From Gamsiella multidivaricata (Eukaryota > Mortierellomycota > Mortierellomycetes > Mortierellales > Mortierellaceae): 64,000 nt of DNA. The DNA is taken from contig NW_026251754.1 of assembly GCF_025024155.1 (NCBI RefSeq), positions 186,001 through 250,000 on the forward strand, given 5' to 3'. How positions within the stretch are numbered: the stretch's first letter is position 1; every line of letters starts with the position of its first letter. Made by a program: the position numbers and the translations under genes. The notes under the pieces were generated by a model. The model saw only the letters and a program-made list of their open reading frames with translations. It did not search any database and had not been told where the DNA came from. Positions 31,259 through 44,373 of the stretch are shown here, piece by piece.

Positions 31259-31637
31259 GGCTAGCATTTGAATCCGCTTAGAAGGAATGTATGGGCGGCC
31301 GGGTTCATTCCACGCAGACGGATGCGGATCATATAGATAGCAATACACAGTTTATGCAGGAGGGAGGCACAAGGCAGATGGAAACGCCCCTTCGATCTCC
31401 CTGCAAGGCTGTGAACAGAGAACGGAGGACTGTTTCCCCTCCCTACACTGTACGCACACGTCAAACTTTTTCGTTTACGTATGCGGCTTGGATGGAAGCA
31501 GGACTTTTCAGGCGTAAACCTCCTGATTGGCAGACTTTTTGGACGGAAATAAGTTTTTTAAGGGTGGCAATAAGGACCATCCTATTTTGGAACACAATCT
31601 TTGTCCTGTTTGACAACGGCTAGCTGCTTCAGCACAT

Positions 31638-34496
31638 TTATTTCTGACATCTTTGTCCCGCCTGGACAGCATTGAGGCCCTTCACCTCAAGCAAGATCTT
31701 CCTTACTCCTGCAATTGTGGTCTGGAAGTACTCAAGCGTACATTTCCTCTTCTTTGTTGAGCCAGTGGCAATGACGATCCCCGATATCATGTTTTTCAGA
31801 TCGGCCTCAAGATCCTGAAGCTCCTGCTCTTGTTCTTTTTCTCTGGCTATTCTTTTCTGTTCCGCCTTTCCTGCCCTTTGCCTATGAAGTAGAAGAAGGA
31901 TTGCTGGTGGAAGGGTTTGCTCCAAAGACGGTGGAAGTGTTGAATCAGATGAAGGATCAAAATCATTCTGGTCGGCCTGTACTTGTAAGTGGTCAATTTC
32001 GTAAGGCTCTCCTTGATAAGAAATCTCCATGCCCTTATAGACCCTTGCGGTTAAATACATATGTTTGCACGGCGCCTGATGTTGAGCATAATAGTTGCGG
32101 TGACAGGCAGCAATGATGGCGAATTCTTCGTCTGTACGGACGTCATACGTGTCGCTGGTTACTCTATTGACAGTTATAGGATTGTCTATAACAGCGAAGG
32201 ACTGGACCTTGAACTAGGTAAAATAGGAATGTTAATAAAATGCCGTTGAGACCATTGTCCAGGGCTCTGGAGACCGGCGATATGGATATACCTTTTGTTC
32301 GTCTGTGTTTAGTATGACCATAGTCTGAGCAGTGTTGAAGTCAACAGCGTCTGTCTTTGCTTTCTCCTTTACGTTGTATGAGGACAGTTTCTGCGGGATC
32401 ATGTTGTTGAGTCTTTTGAAGTAGAGGGTTCTAAAGTCAATATCCACAACCCCTTGCAACAAGTGTACAAGGTCATCTGGACGCAAATTCCGTTCTCTTC
32501 CCAGGTACTGTGATTTGAGCGTCTTGTGCCAGCTTTCGACTAAATTATTGGTATCGTTGTGTTGGTAATCCTAACGAAGCCATCAAAAAAAAAAAAAAAA
32601 AAATGAACATATTATAAAAATAAAATAAAATATGAAAAAAAATTAGCAAAGTTGGATCACCACAACACTTTGGCAGAGTTCAAATGACCCGTCCATGCTC
32701 ACCGATCGAAGATATAGAGCCCATTTCACAAGTCTTGTTGGTTCCATCCATTTCCCGAGATAGATAATAAAAGCGTCTGCAGATGGTGAAAAATTGGTTG
32801 TGAACACTCTCCACTTCAGTCCTCGGTCCTCGTCTGACAGAGCGTTAAGGATCCCGTTCAATGATTTCCGCATGGCATCGCTTTCTGCAACCTGGAGCAG
32901 ACCAAAAGAGATTGAGTAGGAAATATTAGAGGACGAATGGAATAATGGAACGTCTCCGGCCGACATGGGATTCTTCCTTTGCCAGTTACACTTACATTGT
33001 GAAGTTGACGCATTTTCCGTTCCCAAGCTTGATCAACGTGAAACTTGCAGTAGTAAATATCCAAGGAACGAAATGCTTGCTTGAGAGCCTCAGTCTCGAC
33101 GACAGAGCAGTCCACCATAAACTTCGAAGGGTTTAGGCCACACTCTTCTTTGACCCAAGTCAGCCAGGTACTGAGAACATCCCTATTGCAATTAAGGAAA
33201 TAAAACACGAGGGAATGTGAGTCAGCCGAGCATAATACAAACCTGATAGTTTTTATTTTTTTTCCTTTGAAAAGATGAAAGAAAGCACACTTTGTACCAA
33301 ACGGCGGAACTTACGTTGATTCAGAATTGCATACCATGAACGCAACCGGCACACCCAATTGTGTCTTCACATCCTTCACCAAAAGAGTTAACAGATACGC
33401 AGAGGCGAATCTCACCGTTTTTTGGATCTGGCTTCAATGACTTGACGGTTTTGTGTGTTGAGTCCATACACTCGATTTTAGTGCTGTCGCTCATGACCTT
33501 AAAATCATTGAAGGAAAAGTATAGAATAAGTAAAAGATCGAGAATATCACGTTCTTGCCTCCAAAAAAGGGTACCTTAAGTTGGAACTTGGTACTCCAAG
33601 CAAACATGTAAAGATCCGCGTCTCCGGCAATCCCGTCAATAAACGTCCCTTTACCTCCGTCTTCTTTGATAGTTTCGATCCAGGTCTGCACGCTCGCCGT
33701 CGTATTTAATGATTTCCGAGATTTCTTTATCCGTTGACGATACACCGTCTTTCTCACATCCTCGTATGACAGGCAAAATGCAGGAGGGACAATGCCGCCA
33801 GATTTCTTCTCTTCGATCTATGTGTTGTTAAAGGACAAAGGAGCCAAGAGATAGTAATGAGAAGTTGTGAGACAACGGCTCGACTCAATATAACATGATA
33901 ACATAAAAACGGTACTGGACCTCTGACATCGAATTCTCATCCATTCGCAACATAGCTCGTATCCCCTTCCAGTCGCTACCCTCAGCCACCTTCAGCTTGA
34001 TCCAGCTGCGTTCATTCGCGCCCATAGGCATATTTGACAAGGTCTGGGCCGAAAGGTCATGGCTGTGCTGCCACCGGTAATCCACGAGCACCGCATCCAT
34101 GCCGACAGGTTTTTTCATCCGGATCTCAACAGGACATCCAATGCCAATAGATGGCCGGTCGATCGCCAAGGGTCTGGGAGGACCGTGTCTTCTGCATTGA
34201 AAGCGGAAGCTCCAGTCATAGATCTTTGGTCTACCGTTAGTACCAGGAATGGTGATATGGAGAGGGAGGAGAGTGTCGCCGGACTGTTTTCGGATGTCGC
34301 GATTAGGTCCTCGTTCGGAGCAGGGAACAAATTGAATGGCGGTTTGTTCCTGAAACCAGAAGGCTTTGAAGTCTTCCGGTGTAAATCTAACCATCCACAC
34401 CTCCTGTTCACGCGGGAATGGGTTGGGCACAACGAGATCTCGAGGTTTGAAATCGCTGGGATCGATGAAAATGTCTTTCACTTTGAGCCCACCCAT
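31638..34496 (-). pseudogene. SWIM/MULE-type transposase gene with one frameshift
   Basis: Seven exons on the minus strand: 34496-33921, 33817-33575, 33497-33315, 33182-32996, 32891-32703, 32570-32292 and 32207-31638. The sum is 2227 nt, one base more than whole codons. The extra base maps to an A6 run in the gene (T6 at 33418-33423), where the frame must shift to restore VRFASAYLLTLLVKD. The N-terminus looks like a WRKY/GCM1-type zinc finger (CRRHG … YRWQHSHDL). The core has MULE landmarks ECMDSTHKT, FMVDCSVVE and LVESWHKTL, then a C-terminal SWIM-like CHRN…PCKHMYL in which the first Cys of the usual CxC is absent. The frame error may be real decay or a sequencing slip. Confidence 0.75.
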
Positions 34497-34683
34497 CCTT
34501 GAATGCAGTGACAACAGGTGTAGATGGTGAAGATAAGAACAAGAGAGGAATGGCAATGCAGGGGCAACCGATGGGAGAGAGGAAGACAGGGAGAGGTTTG
34601 GGTCAATAGAATAGAGGCGCAAAAGTAAAGTCAACAAGAAGTAGTCACTTCAAACTCCTGGTGGTCTTCACATGCACCCCTTT

Positions 34684-34691
34684 CTCCACAC
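34684..34691 (+). repeat. 8-bp target duplication, left
   Basis: CTCCACAC, repeated exactly at 34811-34818 on the other side of the MITE. Confidence 0.8.
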
Positions 34692-34810
34692 CAGAGATAT
34701 CAGCGGATTGATTTTTTTGGTGGGACGCTGTCAACTACAGGAGTTTTGCTTAACAAAATATTCATAATTGACAGCATCTCACCAAAAAAATCAATCCTCT
34801 GATATCTCTG
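34692..34810. mobile_element. 119-bp hAT-type MITE in the divergent promoter
   Basis: The 43-base ends (34692-34734 and 34768-34810) are inverted repeats matching at 40 of 43 positions and start with CAGAGATATCAG. Exact 8-bp direct repeats CTCCACAC flank the element. CAGAG-type termini with an 8-bp duplication fit the hAT superfamily. It sits between the divergent starts of the MULE transposase gene (34496, minus) and the XPG-TnpB fusion gene (34928, plus). It can fold into a long hairpin and may influence both promoters. Confidence 0.88.
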
Positions 34811-34818
34811 CTCCACAC
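34811..34818 (+). repeat. 8-bp target duplication, right
   Basis: CTCCACAC, exact copy of 34684-34691. Confidence 0.8.
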
Positions 34819-34927
34819 CCTCTCATTCACTTCCCCACGCATACATTATCTCACACAAACTTTCGAATTTATTAATCTCTCGACTCACTTTCTACATCAC
34901 TTCTCTCTATTTCTCATGTAAACGACA

Positions 34928-37900
34928 ATGGGCCTAAAAGACGGATTCGCTTTTCTACGAAGAAAAGGCTATTCTCCTCGGGTGATACACAGGTCGGCGA
35001 TAGTGTCTGCCCTGGGCAGTCGGAGAGGTCTCGTCGACGTGTTGTCCTTTTACGGCGTCATCAAAAACGCCTATGCCCATTGTACCGCAGAGAAGGCCCA
35101 TGCAAGGCTTGAACAGCATGTCTTGGGGTTTGGCTCTAAAACGAACCTGGTCCTGTACATCGACGGCGGGCCAGCACTAGAGAAGTAGGAGACGGCGAAG
35201 CAGCGCAAGGAATCTCGGAGCAAGGCTGCCTCCAAATGTACTGAAAGCCTCGACAAGCTCGGAAGCATCATCAAGGACGGCAGCAAGCCGCGAAGACGCC
35301 ACTTCGTTGACGTTAGGAAAAGTCTCTCGGCCACTTTCTACTGGTCTTTGGAGGATCGTCAAACATTCATCGGGTACCTTCAGCAGGCCGGCTGGTCAGT
35401 ACGCATTTGTGAGACAGAGGCGGATGTCGCGATCGCGTTTGATTGTGGGCCAGAGGATGTCGTAATTTCTGCTGACAGCGACATGTTGGGCTATGATTCT
35501 GTCTTGACTCTTTGGCGTCCTATCTCTAAATGCTTGGTCCTGGAGTACAAGCTCAACGATGTTTGTCGGCTACTTGGATTGACTCGAACTCAACTCACGG
35601 CCCTTGCGGTGGTGTCGTCGAACGACTACAACCGCAATATATATTCCCTGGGACCAGCAACAAACCTCTCCATTATCAAGAGCCTCGATGCACCCAGTAA
35701 GCTCAAACAAAAAAATAAGACGAGCAATTATGATTTATGGTCTTGGAACAATGTAACAGGAAAAATATCTTTTTTTTTTTTTTTGTTTCTTCTTCAGACA
35801 CAGAGGCTATTGTGGCCGCCTATCTGAACCACATCAAGGTCTCGACCAAGAACACAACAAACGAGGATTTTCATGTATCCTTGCGGGTCTTTGTCGATAA
35901 GAAGCAGACTCTTGTCTCCCAAACCTCCACTCCAGCAGGCCCGTCTTTCAACAATCTCTGGGACAGGTTCAGAGACCTTTGCTCCCGTTACGAGCAGCTC
36001 AAGAAAAGTCGTCCGCCTCAAAGGAGGTAATATTTTTATTTTTGTTGTGGTTGCTCTATTCCATGTTGTCTGTAGAGACTTGCTTGACTGATTTTTTTTT
36101 TTTTTTTTTTTCAAATTAACTAGCTCAACCAACGTGCAAATCGTGCGCCTGAGATCACCCCAGACACCGAACCGTTTCAAGGCTGTGGAGTCGCCGATGT
36201 TCATTAAGGATCGTCAGACGGACTCTCAGGTTTCTTCCCTTTCCCAACCAGCTACTGGACAGCAATCACAGCAGTTCGCCGCGGTCACCCAACAAACACA
36301 GCAGCTTGCTTTAACCACGACCCAAGGTCCGTCTTCACCTCAGGAAGAAGTCGGTCACTCTGCTTTGCCATGAACCCGAGTTCCCAAGAAAAACTGCCCT
36401 CGATACTCGTTTAAACGACAAGATCGGACTAAAACGAAACGGCGATCACCGCCAGCAAAGATGAAACAATACGTCTGGAAGCCTTTCAAGGAGCCTGAAC
36501 CCAAGACTGAGAAACCGAAGCCAAAGCACAAGCAAAAGCCTGCGCCAAAATCGTTATCAACTTCAACAGCGAAAACCTACAAGTTGAAAATCACTAGGAT
36601 GTTGGCCTACCAGCACCCGATGACCTCTCTGCACATCGGCACTCTATCCGCCAATATCGAGCAAGCTCTTCCCAACCAAAACAGTCTCCAATACGAGGTG
36701 AAGTCTGCCCTCTTGGATGCTGCAAGTGAGGCGGCTCGCATCAAGCGCAAGGCCCAGATGTTGATTGGGAAATACTTAGAACGCCTGGTCGAAAAAGGAC
36801 TTGAGGGACTGGATGCTCAGGATCGGACCTTTCTCGATCTGATATGTCCGCGAGTCACCATGAAGGATGTCAAGAACAACGCCGATGATGCCGTGGAGGA
36901 AGACGAGGATGGGGATCGGATTGCTGGCATTGTGGACGAGGACGAGGACGAGGAGGATGAGGGCAATGTTGAGGAGGATGACACCGATATGGGAGGATCA
37001 GGCGGGAGTGACCAAGCGCAGCGGCATTTCCTTTCAAGCTTTCTTGTTTATCTGTATTCTGGCAACATCCCAGCAAAACAGGAGGTCGTCAAGTTCATCA
37101 AGCGTCTTGAAGAACTTCATCTGTACAATCCGCCGCGGACTTGGGCTGAGATCAACGAAAGAATGCCAAGGACCTAGTGCGATCCGTAGTCGGACAGCTG
37201 AAAGCTGAGCTTAAACGAATGTACAAGACTGGAACCTGCGATCTCCACAAGATGGTAAGACTTGAAGTGGCATGTCATCAATACAGGTGTTCATTGGCTC
37301 TACAACGTGTTTCTCAATTTTTAGTTGATGAAGAGGGCCAATCAAAGGCAGCTGGGCAAGCCCAACGCGGAAATCCAGATTCGGGGGGATCTCTCGGCCA
37401 TCGAGAACTACCTGACTCTGAACAAGTTGTCTCCGAACCCCAGAAGGACTATCCCTATGACGTCGTCCAAGCAACCGTATGTCGGATTCTCTGAGAGAGA
37501 GCTGGCTGGGTTCTTCTTCAAGAGAGGTGGAGCGCTTAAGCAGAGGCTTATAGATCTGGCAACCGAGGACGGATTCCATGCTTCTACCGACGAGGTCTAC
37601 AGATGGATGGGCGAGAAAGAGCCCGGGTTCTTGATCAAGAACTTTGTCGCCGATATCGATCTTAAAGGCCTGAAGGGTCGCCAGAAACGAAGAGCAGGTC
37701 GCCGAGCCAAAATCAAACTACGGTCCCTCAAGAAACTCGAGAAGCACTTGCAACAGCTTGAGGAACCTGGATTCCAGCCAAGAGACTACGTCGAGAACGG
37801 GTATATCTCGAGGGGATCCCTAATGAAAGATGGATTGGGATTGTACCTGTCGACCTTCAAGTTGAAGGAGCTGCAATCTGTACGATATAGGAGGTTACCA

Positions 37901-39109
37901 GACGATCGTCTGCCGCTCAGGATCGTGTCGACAGTCGGAGGCACAGACTACTACCTTCAAGAGATTCGTAACGTGATCTGGACCGAGGAGGACATCGAAC
38001 AGTTGTGGCCAGGAGTCAATCCAAGCAATATCAAGATCCTGACACTCGATGCTGGTCAAGCGTTCGTGGTTGGTGCGTATGCCTATCTACCTGAGGATCC
38101 CGACGGTCACTACAACCTCGCGGTGAATCAAAAGGCAGTTATGCAACCTGTTTTTCGTTACAGGAGATGGCTTGAGAAAGAAAAAAACTCAAAGGAGGGC
38201 AATCAACCAGAGTCGATTTCGGAAATGGAGTCTCGTTTCCCACTACTTCGGGGTCCAGGCGCGAGCATCACCAAGTACTGGGAGGCACTTGAACTAAAGA
38301 AGAAAGGCCCAGAGGATGACGACGAGGAGGAGGAGTCGAAATGTCCAGCAGGAGAACGACTCTTGGAGTTCTATGCTGGATCCAACAACAGATTCAAAAA
38401 GCATGGTTGGGATTGGGACAGGGCGAAGCAAGCAGAATACCAGGCTATTGCGGCGAGTCTGTTGGGTATCGTAGGCGGAAGCATTGGCCATCCCCGGGAC
38501 CCAGCCAATCCAGTCTTGATTGGCGTTGGTCTTGGTCAGTTCAAGAGTACAGGGCGCATTTCGTCCCTCCATTCAACCTTCCTGGACTACTTTATCCCAT
38601 TGGTATGTATGCTATTTATCATGATTGCAAAGTGTTCAAATGTTTGACATATGTAGAGAAGGGTTGACACAATTTATTAAAAAAAAATCTAGGCCCGGTC
38701 ATTGGGGTATATTGTTGTGGGACTCAACGAGTACTATACCTCAAAAAAGTGCCCTGATTGCCAAAACTTTGTGGCACAGGTGACCCTCCGCGAACTGAAC
38801 TGTCCACACTGCGAGCATTATCACCACAGAGATGCGATGGCGGCTGAGAACATGTCCAGGATTGTCAGAGGACACCTGGAGAAGCAGGAACGACCTCTTT
38901 ACCTACAGCCCAAGACGGCCGATGGACGGTACCCTTGGCAGGAGGACCCAAACATGAACTCTTCCACAGTTGGCACCAGCAACACCAACAGCAGTGCACC
39001 AACGACCAGCGCCAGTACAAGCACCGGTGCTCTCCCCCGTGGTCGCAAGAGGACACCATCTGTATCGAACAAGCCAAGAAAGCCCGGGAAAAAAGCAAAA
39101 GAGTTTTAG
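34928..39109 (+). pseudogene. XPG/FEN1-like nuclease fused to TnpB/Fanzor-like RuvC-zinc ribbon protein
   Basis: Five exons: 34928-35696, 35798-36026, 36124-37254, 37325-38602 and 38693-39109 (3824 nt, one short of 1275 codons). The N-terminus MGLK-x-GF is typical of FEN1/XPG. Candidate metal ligands are D37 (LVDVLSF), D79 (LYIDGG), E162/E164 (CETEADVAI), D183/D185 (SADSDML) and D233 (SSNDYNRN). A Gln/Pro/Lys-rich and acidic linker follows. The C-terminal part has a RuvC-I-like LTLDAGQA (D952), a VGLGQF motif where TnpB has its second acidic residue, and GYIVVGLNEYYTSKKCPDC … CPHC … HRDAMAAENM (D1183). Damage: TAG at 35186-35188, TGA at 36371-36373, and a one-base loss near 37155-37164. The RuvC half from 37164 on is open. 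Confidence 0.72.
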
Positions 39110-39899
39110 TATCATAGTTAAGACTAGTTTTTTGTGTGTCCGGAAACACACACCATATTGCTGAATTCGGTGCATTAAGGAGGGCACCTATTTCACTTCG
39201 GTGACGTAGTTTACGCCCGAAATGCACTGGATTCGCTTGGATGCGATATATTTCCGGGATTCACGACACCTCGGAACTCTTATCTTTTCTTCATATCAGA
39301 ATCAGAATTCATCGTTCGAAGACATGGATCAGTGCTTTCGAAGAATGAGTTCCGGCTCTGATAAAAGAAAAGCTACACACAGTTTGGGTCCCATCTTGCG
39401 AATAACAGGCTTTAGTCATCATGCTTATTCGGCTACGCTGAATAATATCCGCATGTATCAGCCCTTGTTGTGGAGAAGGGGCGTAATCTTGCTTCCCGCA
39501 TCCAATATGGTTTTGCCGAAACGCACCAGCTTGTACAAGTCCCAGTTGACCTTCCCATCTTGTATCGCTGCTTCAGCCCAGTCAGTTCTCCATAAAGCAC
39601 TGGGTGATGTTGTGCCCGGACTCTCATACCTGCACAGCCTGGTGTCACTTTCTGTAGAAGTCTGTCAAAGAGCTTCTTTAGTAAGGCACTAAAACTACCA
39701 AGAAAAGTTCGGATACATCCTTCCATTTATCTGTGCGAAAGAAGTAAATCGATGACTGGTGAACTACAGAGGGAGAGAGGGGAACAATGATGATGCGTCG
39801 TTACTAAAACAGGACGGGAAAACAGGCACGTGCTCGAATAGTACCATTTTGGAACATGGTCACTTGCAGTCCGGGCTTATTTTTCCATCCCTTGCCAAC
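39110..39899. other. Intergenic between fusion gene and fluoride exporter
   Basis: About 790 bases. Both strands have ~100-150 codon frames at 39222-39726 that overlap and that I cannot assign; element debris is possible. No clear promoter motif. Confidence 0.4.
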
Positions 39900-41593
39900 A
39901 TGAGCGAAGACAGCAGAAGTGCAACCTACATAGACATGACCCAGCGCCAAAATCCCATGGAGCAGAAGGAGCATGTGTCTCATTCAGGATCTCAACGCTC
40001 ACGGCAACAGTCAGATGAGTCATGGGATTCAAAATCAGCGTCCACGGCTTCACTACAGATTGAAGAAGGTGCGGAGATGCCGCCAACAGACACAGAGAGT
40101 TTGGAGAGAAACCGTGCGTCTTATTCAGGATCTCAGCGTTTGCAACAACAGCTGAATAACCGATGGAAATCAGAGTCAGTGTCCTCGTCCTCGCTGCAAA
40201 TTGAAGAAGGTGCAGAGCTGCCGGCAACGGATGCAGAGAGTGAGACAGAATCAGATACGCACAAACCGGCTGCTGCAGCACGAGAGCTGCCTAAAAGGGC
40301 GCCGATTCTCCTGCCTTCATTGATTGTTCCGTTTTCAATCCTGGGACTTTTGATCCGCTTGGGGTTGGTATCGATCGAGACGTTTTCGGGACAGCAGGTC
40401 TTTGCGCTAGCATGGCCGCAGTTCATTGGATGTGTGCTTATGGGTTTGTTTGTTACGACCAGGGCGTGGATCGAGGAAGGCTTTGTCAAGGATAGGAGCA
40501 GAAGGAAAGGGCATTGGATTGGAGCGTTTATCTATGTAGCACTATCGTCAGGACTGTGCGGATCGATTACGACCTTCTCATCGTGGAGCTTGGGGGTCTT
40601 TGTAGAGCTAATCAACCCGTCCAAGATCCAGCGCCATGTGCTACAAAATGTGAGTGTGTATAACGATCAACGGCTATGTTGTTGTGCGATCTGGAGCACT
40701 GTGTTTGACAGAACATCTTTGTACGTATAGATTTTATCAGGCATTTCAGAGTTAATTGTCACCTTGGCTGTATCGATGTCAGGATTGCAAATGGGAGCAC
40801 ATCTTGGACAGGCTGTTCTTCAACACATCCGTACAGAAGCACCACCTGCTGCATCTGTACCATCTACTACAACACCATCACAGGATACCCAGGCAACCGC
40901 AACAAAGGATGAAGCTCAACTCAAACGAGCACCAACCCAAACGTTGGACCCAATTCGCCCGCTCCCACCCACTCACTGGACAGTCCTTGATGCTGTTATC
41001 GTATCGTCAGCTATTATTATCTGGATCGGCATGATTCTGGCTGCCATCTTTACACCAGAGGGCTCTCAGTCATCATGGCGGCACGTAGTCCTGGCGATAT
41101 GTTTTGCGCCACCGGGAGCCATTTTGAGATGGTATCTCTCACGGCTCAACCCACGAATGAAGAAGTTCCCTCTGGGTACATTCGCAGCGAATATAGGAGG
41201 GTCGATGTTCTTAGCAGTGATTGTTTGTTTGCAACATAGTCCAGTCGCTGGAGGCAAGAGTGCACTGGCCTGCCAAGTGCTGAGCGGACTGCAGGATGGG
41301 TTCTGTGGTAAATACAGTACATGTCAACGCACTTCTGCGATGGCTTATTTAGAAGACAACCTAATGAAGATATCTTTTTTGGTCAATGTGAACTGCTAGG
41401 CTGCTTGACTACAATTTCAACATTCGTATTGGAGCTAAAGACTTTACCACGGAGGTCATCGTATATCTATGGACTCGTCTCGATCGTAGCGGCTCAACTG
41501 GGCATGTTTGTCGTTTTGGGCTCATTTGTGTGGACACGGAGGTCAACAGTTGAGGACGACAACGTCTATCAGCATGACATGTGTTCCATGTGA
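39900..41593 (+). CDS. FEX1: Fluoride export protein FEX (two CrcB domains)
   Basis: Three exons: 39900-40649, 40731-41307 and 41400-41593, 1521 nt, 506 residues. Two CrcB/Fluc domains are fused as in eukaryotic FEX. The first starts near residue 138 with motif GLCGSITTFSSW (about 218). The second starts near 333 with GFCGCLTTISTF (about 443), the Cys-Leu pair crossing the last intron. FEX exports toxic fluoride through the plasma membrane; the paired GxCGxxTT/SF motifs line the pore. The cytosolic N-terminus (about 130 residues) is Ser/Glu-rich and contains a 47-residue tandem duplication (39979-40119 and 40120-40260). The frame is open upstream to 39759, but MSEDS at 39900 is the first ATG. 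Confidence 0.93.
39979..40260 (+). repeat. Tandem 141-bp duplication inside FEX
   Basis: Two units with period 141 bases (47 codons). Shared landmarks are ATTCAGGATCTCA at 39982 and 40123, and TGAAGAAGGTGC at 40061 and 40202. The encoded units share SGSQR and LQIEEGAE and lie in the cytosolic tail. Confidence 0.85.
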
Positions 41594-43433
41594 GAGTCCC
41601 TATCGCCTTTATTGTACTCTTAACCCGGCATCTTAGAAATAACTCCACTATATAATAAAGCAAGCAAGGTATAAGCCACCATAATTAGGCGGCAACTCTA
41701 CATTTTTTCACGTAGAGGATGCTCTACCATGTCGCGTAGACCTCTCTCCCTCATGCCCGAGGGCCAGGAAAATAAAAAATAAAGAATATTTCTTCTCTGT
41801 CTTTCTCTCTCATCCACTCTCTCTCTCTTTGTCTGTCTCTATCACCGCTGCCTGCCGCCATCCTACTTTGAACCCCTTCAACATGCCCAAGAGCGAATAG
41901 TGCAAGAAAAACCGTGACCGTCAGACCTACTATACATGCCCGAAAAGATATTTCATGTCACCACGTCGCTCGCTCATTTCGCACCACAACAAACACAGTG
42001 GCTGCTTAGTCTAAGGTGCACTTATCTCATTCTTCTTTTTCTTTTGTTTGCACCTTACGAACCCAGCGGTGCTTCATCAAGTGCAATCCTTGAGAATGGC
42101 CAGTGAAAAACCTCCTTTCTGGCTCTTTGTACATCTCGAGTCAAGCGCAAGAAGGCTGGTAACACTGAGAAGAAGAGGAAATTTGTTGTCCATGCTTCCC
42201 AAAAAAATGATAATATGGCATTTGAAGAAGGAGGAGAAGGATCCAGTTGCTGATGCGTCTCTAGCGGAGCACCAGATAGCTGATGCCTCTATAGAGACAA
42301 ACCTGAAGTAGAGGCTATCTTTAGGAACGAGATAGCATTGCACCACCGACATATCTTTGGAGCGGTAGATGCCTCATTTCACGACACCATACAGAAGCCG
42401 GTCATCCAGTATGGTAGGAAGATTATCATATTTTGGAGTCGATTACCGTCAAGGCTTACCAGTAGCACCTCGAAGAACCTCTGGCCAGGTCGAGGACGCC
42501 TGCCTCAAGAACTCTTGAAAGACCGGCCGCACGTACAGACATTGTGATTTAGGGGAAACATGCGAATAAGGGAAATCCGCTCAACCGACCTTTCGTAAAG
42601 TGGTTGGTCGACATTGGCACGGAGCTAACAATGAGCTCAAGTCTGCACAACGATTTAATTAGGATCTCAAACTAGTACATCTTCAACCCGGAGAATCAAG
42701 GACTAACAAACCCATATCTAATCATGGACAGGATTGGAAGAAGGTTCGTGTAAAGTTGGATACTAGACAAGAAGTGGATCCTAAGATCCATGACTGGGCA
42801 AACATTTAAGATATAGTAAGGGGCCACTGTTATTCATGGCGTGTTCCAGGCTCCATTCTACCATCCAAATAAACCGTGTTCGTTTTCCCTCTTTGAATAC
42901 TTCGCGCTACCTATTTTCTTGAAGATGGAGCTTTGACATGTGCGCTTAAGGTTTGGGGTGACGCGTAGCACAGCGCACTGTGAAATCATTCCGTCTGCTC
43001 TGCTCTCTATCGACTGTCGCTGCTTTCGCCTACTCTGCATATCCTTCTACTTGCCATCCTTCCCGCGGTTGTTCGCAGTCAGCGACTAAAAGCCGTTCAA
43101 ATCTGAACCTCATCTGACGCTACTAACTGTCGCGTCCTTGGTAAACAACCCTATCTTTCTGTAGCGGAATAATTCGTTACGAAAAGAACAAAGCACCTAG
43201 CCATTTGCTCTAACCGAGTTTCTATTACACATCTCACTCGCTTCGCTCTTTTCCGCTACAGACCCTTTGGCGCTGTCATACAAGACGTTCGACATATGTA
43301 TTTGTCTTGCTAACGAAAAAGATAAAGAACATTAACGCTGACGTGAGGCTTCCCCGAATTGATAATCCACTTTTTATTGCAGAGGCGAGGATGAGAATGA
43401 GGATGAAGGCAGACTGATGGCAAACATAATGAA
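41594..43433. other. Intergenic, transposon debris suspected
   Basis: No intact gene. A C/T-rich tract lies at 41790-41845. Around 41883-42010 a broken frame reads YYTCPKRYF…SLISHHNKH, like a C2H2 finger of some fungal transposases. At 42050-42547 two short frames of unknown identity follow. Evidence is too weak for a family call. Confidence 0.35.
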
Positions 43434-44373
43434 TTGAAAAATCATATTAGCTTCAGCACTTTCTGGCGAGGACCTTATCCTGTTGCAGAAAGAAAGAAAA
43501 GTCGAAAGGATACTCATAAAGTACAAGTAATTTTTAGATGGGTTTACTTCCTTGTACCAGGAAATGAAAAAGCGTGGGCCCCGCCAAGCTTCGTCGATCC
43601 AAAATCGTTGGCGAACACACAGTTTGAGGTGAATTTCCTTGAATCATTTTACTCGGAAATGGTGCGCTTGATGATCAAGAACTATAACGAAGGTCGTGTG
43701 CTCGAAGTAGGTCACATCCTGGGGAAGAAGCTGTTTGAGACTTTTGGGCTCTGCAGGATTCACATTGACGGCGATATGACCACTGAAAAGGCAAAGGCTC
43801 GCCTGGAACGCACCATCAGTAGCGACGGTAGTAGTAGTAGTAGTAGTAGCAATTCTCTGAGCACCACCGACATTAACAGCGAAATCAATGTTCTGGACAC
43901 AAAAAACCGTAGGTTGCATGTTTGGATTACTCCATCAAGGGTATCTTGAGCATGGCGGGTGGACCGGAGGGTCGGAGGAAGCTAATTGAGGATAATTTAG
44001 TCCTTTGCTTTGGCCTGGGTTCATTCAACACTCAAACCGTGACTGTATCATCAGAGTAAGTCCTAATGCGCGTCCAATGTATACTCCCGTGTTCGTCTGT
44101 ACTATCTAGGCAAAGAGCTTGGGATACGTCGTGCTGGGAGCACACGAGTATTATACAAACGCAAAATGTCCCCGTCTGGACTGTAACCGGTTTCTGGTCA
44201 AGCTGCCGTTTCGTACAAAATATTGTCCCGGGTGCCATGTCCTGTTCGATCGCGATGCAGTGGGAAGCGAGAACATAGCCCGTGTATGCCAAGTGCGGCT
44301 ACAGGATCAAGCCTCTGCAAAGTTCTGTAACAACAGCAGCAGCCCTAGGTCCGGTCATTTCTGCCAGGGCTAG
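43434..44373 (+). pseudogene. Second XPG-TnpB fusion copy, internally deleted
   Basis: The upstream part encodes an XPG-N-like segment (FEVNFLESFYSEMVRL, then RIHIDGDMTTEKAKARLER) matching the LVDVLSF…YIDGG…EK region of the copy at 34.9 kb. After a Ser run from (AGT)n and a stop, a short piece reads CFGLGSF, the equivalent of VGLGQF. A GT-AG intron (44056-44109) then precedes AKSLGYVVLGAHEYYTNAKCP … CPGC … DRDAVGSEN. The XPG-I domain and most of the RuvC domain are missing, the reading frame does not join across the intron, and HRD has become DRD. Both ends of the fusion therefore survive in a ~1-kb remnant. Confidence 0.7.

Follow-up and report, generated by a model that had tools for sequence, protein, structure and literature searches.

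A predicted fusion of an XPG/FEN1-like and a Fanzor1-like nuclease on a probable Mutator-like transposon of Gamsiella multidivaricata

The window, the whole stretch of 64,000 nucleotides analysed here, covers positions 186001-250000 of contig C122 of the Gamsiella multidivaricata genome (37.5 Mb, 180 contigs). As shown in Table 1, a transposable element in the window carries a plus-strand gene that joins an XPG/FEN1-like nuclease half to a Fanzor1-like half through a linker. An earlier annotation made from the letters alone (the sequence-only reading) had described this gene; its coordinates, strand, motif order and GT..AG introns were all reproduced. The five exons read through to about 1275 codons, a length that the sequence-only reading had reached by allowing for one lost base. 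A frame break was indeed found in the Fanzor1-like half at about 37150-37180, but two in-frame stops, one in the XPG half and one in the linker, had been overlooked. With these two stops besides the frame break, the copy in the window is a pseudogene.

The XPG half of the window gene matched XPG_I (PF00867) with E=2.9e-5 and 24.8 bits, just below the cut-off of 24.9, and the same match in homologous proteins was also near or below the cut-off. Numbered along the read-through, the acidic residues typical of XPG nucleases are D37, D79, E164/D166, D183/D185 and D233. The sequence-only reading had named the same residues except for the central pair, which it gave as E162/E164; relatives conserve E164/D166 instead. 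In alignment A4 (17 sequences), E164, D166 and D185 were invariant, and D79, K86, R93 and D233 were nearly invariant. The columns of D37 and D183 were absent from the list of conserved positions of A4, and several of the models have no N-terminus. K86 and R93 lie 7 and 14 residues, respectively, after the D of the DG motif, a spacing that we take to resemble that of K93 and R100 in FEN1. The relative P0016 was predicted to have the fold of the XPG/FEN1/EXO1 superfamily, its closest folds being DNA flap nucleases and exonucleases, and the linker of this model (residues 338-436) had a predicted local distance difference test score (pLDDT) below 50. By modelled fold and active site, the XPG half is a member of the FEN1/EXO1/XPG superfamily, and it would be expected to keep an XPG function in the fusion.

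The C-terminal half of the window gene contained a Cas12f1-like TNB domain (PF07282). RuvC-type positions in the read-through were D951 (RuvC-I), E1148 (the alternative glutamate) and D1182 (RuvC-III). The motif reported for Fanzor proteins is D-X(125,275)-[TS]-[TS]-X-X-[C4 zinc finger]-X(5,50)-RD (PMC3627910), and the window read-through agrees with it: D951 is followed after X=199 by TS, K-K and a C4 finger ending at 1175, then after X=5 by RD at 1181. The predicted fold of the C-terminal half of relative P0012 matched Fanzor1 over 470-489 aligned residues (SpuFz and PpFz), which answers the doubt, raised in the sequence-only reading, that this part might have no RuvC fold. In the sequence comparison, the C-half profile A5 matched SpuFz at no better than E=0.61, and it is mainly the structure model that supports the assignment to Fanzor1. 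Reported fingerprints of Fanzors are a RuvC-I DPG motif, near exclusive to them, and an alternative glutamate six residues ahead of the zinc finger, and Fanzor1 is reported to have a TDG motif in the WED domain (PMC10711439). Among 126 proteins scanned, many of them partial, the RuvC-I motif was found in 101, as DAG in 42, DLG in 27, DGG in 23 and other forms in 9. The family is named "Fanzor1-like" because its RuvC-I is never DPG despite the Fanzor1 fold. Of the 40 proteins in which the pattern could be located, 36 had the alternative glutamate six residues ahead of the finger. The string TDG occurred in 79 of the 126 proteins, as a plain string count whose position was not checked in each, and the window copy has KDG at this place. 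The Fanzor half probably folds and works like Fanzor1.

The two halves occur together throughout the genome. There were at least 109 zinc-ribbon matches (PF07282) and 103 stretches matching the XPG-bearing exon of the window. An XPG stretch lay on the same strand less than 6 kb upstream of 54 of the 109 zinc-ribbon matches, compared with about 0.9 expected at random placement; as controls, an XPG stretch lay on the opposite strand in 5 cases and downstream on the same strand in 3. Conversely, 61 of the 103 XPG stretches had a zinc-ribbon (TNB) match downstream. In the 20 loci fetched, the order N1-N2-E2-E3-R-Z was kept wherever parts were found, at 27-98% identity; some of these loci do not have every part, and L040 holds a second, inverted element. 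In three of nine copies tested (L031, L038 and L044), one reading frame stays open from the end of the XPG fold into the beginning of the Fanzor part. In the other six, the frame followed contains stops between these parts, which may reflect an intron or decay.

Scoring of 7998 candidates from a search of 5.8 billion proteins yielded 27 homologues. Fifteen of them combined the XPG E-A-D motif with that of RuvC-III (HRD/HKD), so homologues do not always end before the linker, the outcome that the sequence-only reading had named as evidence for two separate genes. Three others (P0008, P0020 and P0023) had XPG and RuvC-I and an early end; of the remaining nine, eight were without the E-A-D motif and P0016 was without RuvC motifs. 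Twelve of the 15 two-sided relatives were 1208-1358 aa long and came from six genera (Entomortierella, Gryganskiella, Haplosporangium, Linnemannia, Podila and Mortierella), and a seventh genus, Dissophora, was represented by the partial model P0019. Gryganskiella, Haplosporangium, Podila, Entomortierella, Linnemannia and Dissophora were confirmed to belong to the Mortierellaceae. Because relatives in the genome keep the order of the parts and annotated proteins elsewhere span both halves, the motif order of the fusion far exceeds chance, and the single gene proposed from the letters is borne out.

Outside the Mortierellaceae, the only relatives among the taxon-named matches were two C-terminal halves from Umbelopsis (P0120 and P0124) and short Apophysomyces contigs (P0036 and P0066), which may be contamination. 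The gene model of P0120 starts within a linker-like stretch, so XPG exons upstream may have been missed. In P0059 from Haplosporangium gracile, the Fanzor half and a prefoldin subunit (PF02996, E=5e-28) share one gene model, probably through an artefact of gene prediction or an insertion beside a host gene. The searches made found no relatives in viral contigs or in plasmids. Limited literature searches in the openly licensed part of PubMed Central found no description of an XPG-Fanzor fusion, which leaves novelty in print unproven.

Sixteen pairwise comparisons were made, 7 for the XPG part and 9 for the RuvC part, and in 15 of them the ratio of nonsynonymous to synonymous substitution rates (dN/dS) was below 1, ranging from 0.19 to 0.62. 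The exception was the RuvC part of L036/L038, with 1.45 at dS 0.014. This is modest evidence, because pairs share some copies and many pairs are close. DNA identity in the XPG and RuvC parts was 69% and 87%, respectively, for L033/L034, and 96% and 84%, respectively, for L032/L046; this unequal divergence suggests exchange between the halves by recombination. Judged from the aligned sequences, catalytic residues are retained in most family members.

The boundaries of the element were set by homology. On the left, matches to other copies start at 31493/31494 for the two longest and slightly further in for the others; on the right, three matches end at 39234. Mutator-like elements (MULEs) have terminal inverted repeats (TIRs) and target site duplications (TSDs) of about 8-11 bp, and the window element fits this expectation. 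Conserved ends in multiple copies, which the sequence-only reading had suggested looking for, were found in part. The window element has inverted ends and an exact 8-bp TSD, the sibling element at C93 has an exact CCGACGTT repeat, the sibling at C159 had GCACGTCC/GCACGTTC with one mismatch, and no TSD was found for the sibling at C95; an exact 8-bp TSD was thus seen in two of the four elements examined. The minus-strand pieces upstream of the nuclease gene have what we take, read by eye, to be SWIM-like and MULE-like motifs, and none of these pieces gave a Pfam match naming a transposase. The genome contained 20 MULE matches, ranging from weak to strong. Four of these, each below the cut-off (E 0.004-0.18), are located upstream of nuclease genes of sibling elements, in divergent orientation, at C93 (two), C159 and C95.

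The left end of the window element (31493-32150) was 88-97% identical to the left ends at C111, C126, C134, C118, C146, C131 and C19, and the XPG parts at these places were 48-57% identical to that of the window, so that the window element looks chimeric. A short inverted repeat resembling a miniature inverted-repeat transposable element, with 46-bp arms that are 91% complementary, lies between the transposase remnant and the nuclease gene (34692-34810) and was found at about 20 more places in the genome. The L035 family had 12 copies with a common right end and differing 5' stops, a count that leaves out a 13th piece of 141 bp at C32. Its reading as 5' truncation like that of long interspersed nuclear elements, or retrotransposition, was dropped; 7 of the 12 left stops are contig ends (C12, C33, C88, C62, C140, C121 and C111). 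At the other five junctions (L071, L077, L081, L083 and L085; C98, C131, C19, C105 and C126, respectively) no TSD was seen by eye. The C32 copy (L029) has no upstream part because 3900 bases read N.

Two hairpins follow the stop codon of the nuclease gene. A string like hairpin 1 was found by simple pattern in 27 of 49 3' regions, and in the two closest relatives, C101 and C1, one arm or the whole of it is lost. The right-end hairpin is the candidate guide-RNA scaffold. The element ends about 33-37 nt past the start of its conserved core GGTGACGTAG, as set by comparison of flanks, and the flanks beyond this end differ among the copies compared. From the 49 regions, 28 right ends were folded, excluding near-duplicates (such as L004, L039 and L068) and regions without a clear core; some loci occur twice among the 49 regions, and the 28 right ends are non-independent. 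A z-score of -2 or lower was reached by 13 of the 28 right ends (including the window, L029 with -4.23 and L067 with -5.98) and by none of 27 downstream controls. The sense strand was more stable than its complement in 27 of the 28 right ends and had the lower z in 21.

A pair table across 11 families showed two-sided changes at 25 of 32 offsets, which is illustrative only because every fold picks its own pairs. RNAalifold gave no common structure (energy 0) in the anchored and MAFFT alignments of 22 right ends. Beyond its own sequences, model R1 found second locus copies, the close relative C1 and two right ends of one other family, L067 (E=2.4e-4) and L055 (E=0.029), with no convincing match in the remaining families. 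Rfam gave no match in 501 bases. The reported prediction for Fanzor1 guide RNAs is a scaffold that includes the TIR and TSD and has no pseudoknot (PMC10711439), and the candidate right-end scaffold fits it. By analogy with Fanzor and TnpB, the guide itself would lie in the flank from 39235 onward.

Beyond the element, a plus-strand gene just 3' of the insertion (39897-41396) has two domains of the CrcB type, known from fluoride channels (PF02537, E=3.3e-9 and 4.2e-12). About 5 kb downstream is a second degraded Fanzor-like remnant of another family (43407-44373, plus strand; HEYYTNAKCP ... FDRDAVGSEN), with a PF07282 match over 44110-44370 (E=5.7e-6; 26.8 bits, with the cut-off at 26.3). No XPG match lay upstream of this remnant in the XPG/TNB pairing count.

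Table 1. Features of the element and the fusion gene in the window (ORF, open reading frame; TSD, target site duplication; MULE, Mutator-like element)
Feature	Position	Strand	Basis or remark
Left TSD GCTTGGAT	31486-31493		exact copy at 39235-39242
Whole transposable element, 7741 bp	31494-39234		homology boundaries, inverted ends, 8-bp TSD
Left terminal inverted repeat, imperfect, ~26 bp	31494-31519		repeat search (21 nt, 81%) and direct end alignment
Putative MULE-like transposase remnant, divergent to nuclease gene	31638-34649	-	ORF pieces
XPG-Fanzor fusion gene, pseudogene in window copy	34928-39109	+	five exons
Exons of fusion gene	34928-35696, 35798-36026, 36124-37254, 37325-38602, 38693-39109	+	
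Introns of fusion gene	35697-35797, 36027-36123, 37255-37324, 38603-38692	+	all GT..AG
XPG/FEN1/EXO1-like nuclease half, ~residues 1-332	34928-36026	+	PF00867, PDB profile match, model of relative P0016
In-frame stop TAG, XPG half	35186-35188	+	
Linker, limits approximate	36124-36598	+	predicted disordered in relatives
In-frame stop TGA, linker	36371-36373	+	
Fanzor1-like half, start approximate	36599-39109	+	model of relative P0012 against SpuFz and PpFz; TNB domain
Alternative RuvC-II glutamate (NEYYTSKKC), C4 zinc ribbon, RuvC-III HRD	38693-38866	+	PF07282 E=1.8e-12, motif positions
Hairpin 1, directly after stop (GTGTGT ... ACACAC)	39134-39153	+	simple pattern
Right-end hairpin, candidate guide-RNA scaffold	39163-39234	+	fold z -4.45, similar hairpins in diverged families
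Conserved core GGTGACGTAG, 3' strand of right-end hairpin	39200-39209	+	
Right terminal inverted repeat	39209-39234		end alignment
Right TSD GCTTGGAT	39235-39242		exact 8-bp repeat

In the explanation that we prefer, a MULE-like transposon of Mortierellaceae would encode, divergent from its transposase, one protein in which a disordered linker connects an N-terminal XPG-type nuclease to a complete Fanzor1-like one. The guide-RNA scaffold would most likely be the structured right end, contained in the same transcript as the 3' part of the gene, with flanking host DNA as the guide, and the enzyme would thereby find the site where the element sits or sat. RuvC would cut the empty site or allele after excision, the tethered flap/5'-exonuclease would resect or trim the 5' ends at the break, and this processing would favour restoring the element to its site by homology-directed copying. 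TnpB cutting of an empty site aids retention of the element by recombination, and EXO1 and FEN1 act in 5' resection and flap removal; for this reason a cutter with its own end processor is the most economical reading. We give the explanation as a whole an even chance. The fusion, both folds, the mostly kept catalytic residues, the ends with their TSD and the recurrent hairpin are supported by sequence, alignments and models. The fusion gene would be expressed, both halves are probably active nucleases in intact members, and guidance of the fusion protein by RNA is probable. The resection or trimming role of the XPG half is tentative, and we put it at somewhat under even.

Several observations weigh against this explanation, starting with the pseudogene state of the window copy. 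D183 is replaced in P0011, P0013 and P0017, and 4 of 40 proteins have another residue in place of the alternative glutamate (K in 2, G in 2). RuvC-I DPG occurred in none of the 101 motifs found. No TNB match lay within 6 kb downstream of 42 of the 103 XPG stretches, and no XPG match lay upstream of 55 of the 109 TNB matches. Contig ends, N runs, truncation and divergence account only in part for these unpaired matches; contig ends and N runs interrupt some copies, and several of the 42 XPG stretches (e.g., C97, C118 and C146) do show a RuvC-exon match. At the right end, 15 of the 28 sequences fail a z of -2, among them L041 and L042, to which the window copy is most closely related, and for the reverse complement 9 of 28 reach this value. 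The sequence-only reading had pointed to a structured RNA after the stop; the hairpin was found there, but formal covariation in alignment A2 was not significant, the count being reached by 102 of 500 shuffles.

The result for the reverse complement means that the hairpin could in part reflect a palindrome in the DNA that the transposase recognises. The hairpin might even be a transposase-binding palindrome only, the Fanzor half having lost RNA guidance: its 3' arm coincides with the TIR, the reverse complement has the lower z in 7 of 28 ends, and the lack of significant covariation agrees with it. The strand bias in stability and z described above argues for an RNA, as does the reported prediction that Fanzor1 guide-RNA scaffolds contain the TIR and TSD (PMC10711439), and we consider a palindrome without guidance rather unlikely. 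The XPG half could also work inside the R-loop, in the manner of XPG on bubbles or FEN1 on flaps, nicking the displaced strand or trimming a flap after the RuvC cut and altering the cut geometry with no repair resection. RuvC motifs are retained in most members, which makes a second strand-cutter needless, and such a role is on balance unlikely.

Transposition itself could be what the XPG half serves, by processing ends, gaps or flaps at insertion, with the Fanzor half as a DNA binder or for retention only. The gene does lie inside an element that has inverted ends of its own and an 8-bp TSD, and MULE-like transposase pieces adjoin some siblings; what is maintained across genera, however, is the fusion to the Fanzor half and not to a transposase, and we regard this role as quite unlikely. 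It is very unlikely that the XPG half acts on RNA, trimming the transcript from its 5' side to mature a guide RNA embedded in the 3' region of its own message. In favour of this, the stop codon is directly followed by the candidate scaffold, and hairpins could halt a 5' exonuclease, but the closest folds are nucleases acting on DNA, and TnpB-type proteins mature their own RNA without an XPG-like domain. A misjoining of two adjacent genes by gene prediction would agree with the 9 of 27 database models without XPG E-A-D or RuvC motifs and with the stops between the parts in six of nine copies. Against it stand the open frame over the junction in L031, L038 and L044 and the 15 models with both ends from seven named genera, which make it highly improbable.

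Fanzors are the RNA-guided nucleases of eukaryotes, and the reason for their retention by transposons is an open question. A flap/5'-exonuclease domain kept by selection on a Fanzor-type cutter suggests that end processing near the cut is part of the job, and the fusion, with two active sites in one protein, makes the idea of retention by recombination directly testable. If active, it would be a natural RNA-guided nuclease with a built-in end-processing partner. That this D[A/L/G]G Fanzor1-like lineage is a self-contained eukaryotic RNA-guided homing enzyme, combining a programmable break with 5' resection or trimming in one polypeptide, is a possibility that we hold as doubtful; if true, the break would be channelled into homologous copying of the transposon.

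Compared with FEN1, EXO1 and XPG (the Rad2 family), the XPG half of the fusion showed only 12-19% identity in the matches shown and, unlike these proteins, is joined to a Fanzor-type nuclease and carried by a transposon. The match to TnpB/OMEGA proteins (ISDra2 and others) and Cas12 was weaker than that to Fanzor1, and the fusion differs from them by its alternative glutamate and its intron-bearing eukaryotic gene; we know of no comparable nuclease fusion in TnpB/OMEGA or Cas12. The MuDR-like elements ROr-4, PBl-3 and MCi-4 of Rhizopus, Phycomyces and Mucor likewise combine a Fanzor1-type protein with a MULE-like element in early-diverging fungi, and differ in their 9-bp TSDs and in having, as reported, no MuDR transposase (Bao and Jurka 2013, PMC3627910). 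The main text of that paper contains neither the word XPG nor the word exonuclease. With Fanzor1 (SpuFz1, PpFz1 and GtFz1), the fusion has in common the predicted fold, the alternative glutamate before a C4 zinc ribbon, HRD, TDG in many members, carriage by a DNA transposon and a structured right end. RuvC-I is reported as DPG for Fanzors and is mostly D[A/L/G]G, never DPG, in the fusion family, and most Fz1 proteins are reported to be 600-700 aa long (PMC11423790), against the lengths given above for 12 of the 15 two-sided relatives. Unlike Fanzor1, the fusion has an N-terminal FEN1-like nuclease and a long linker.

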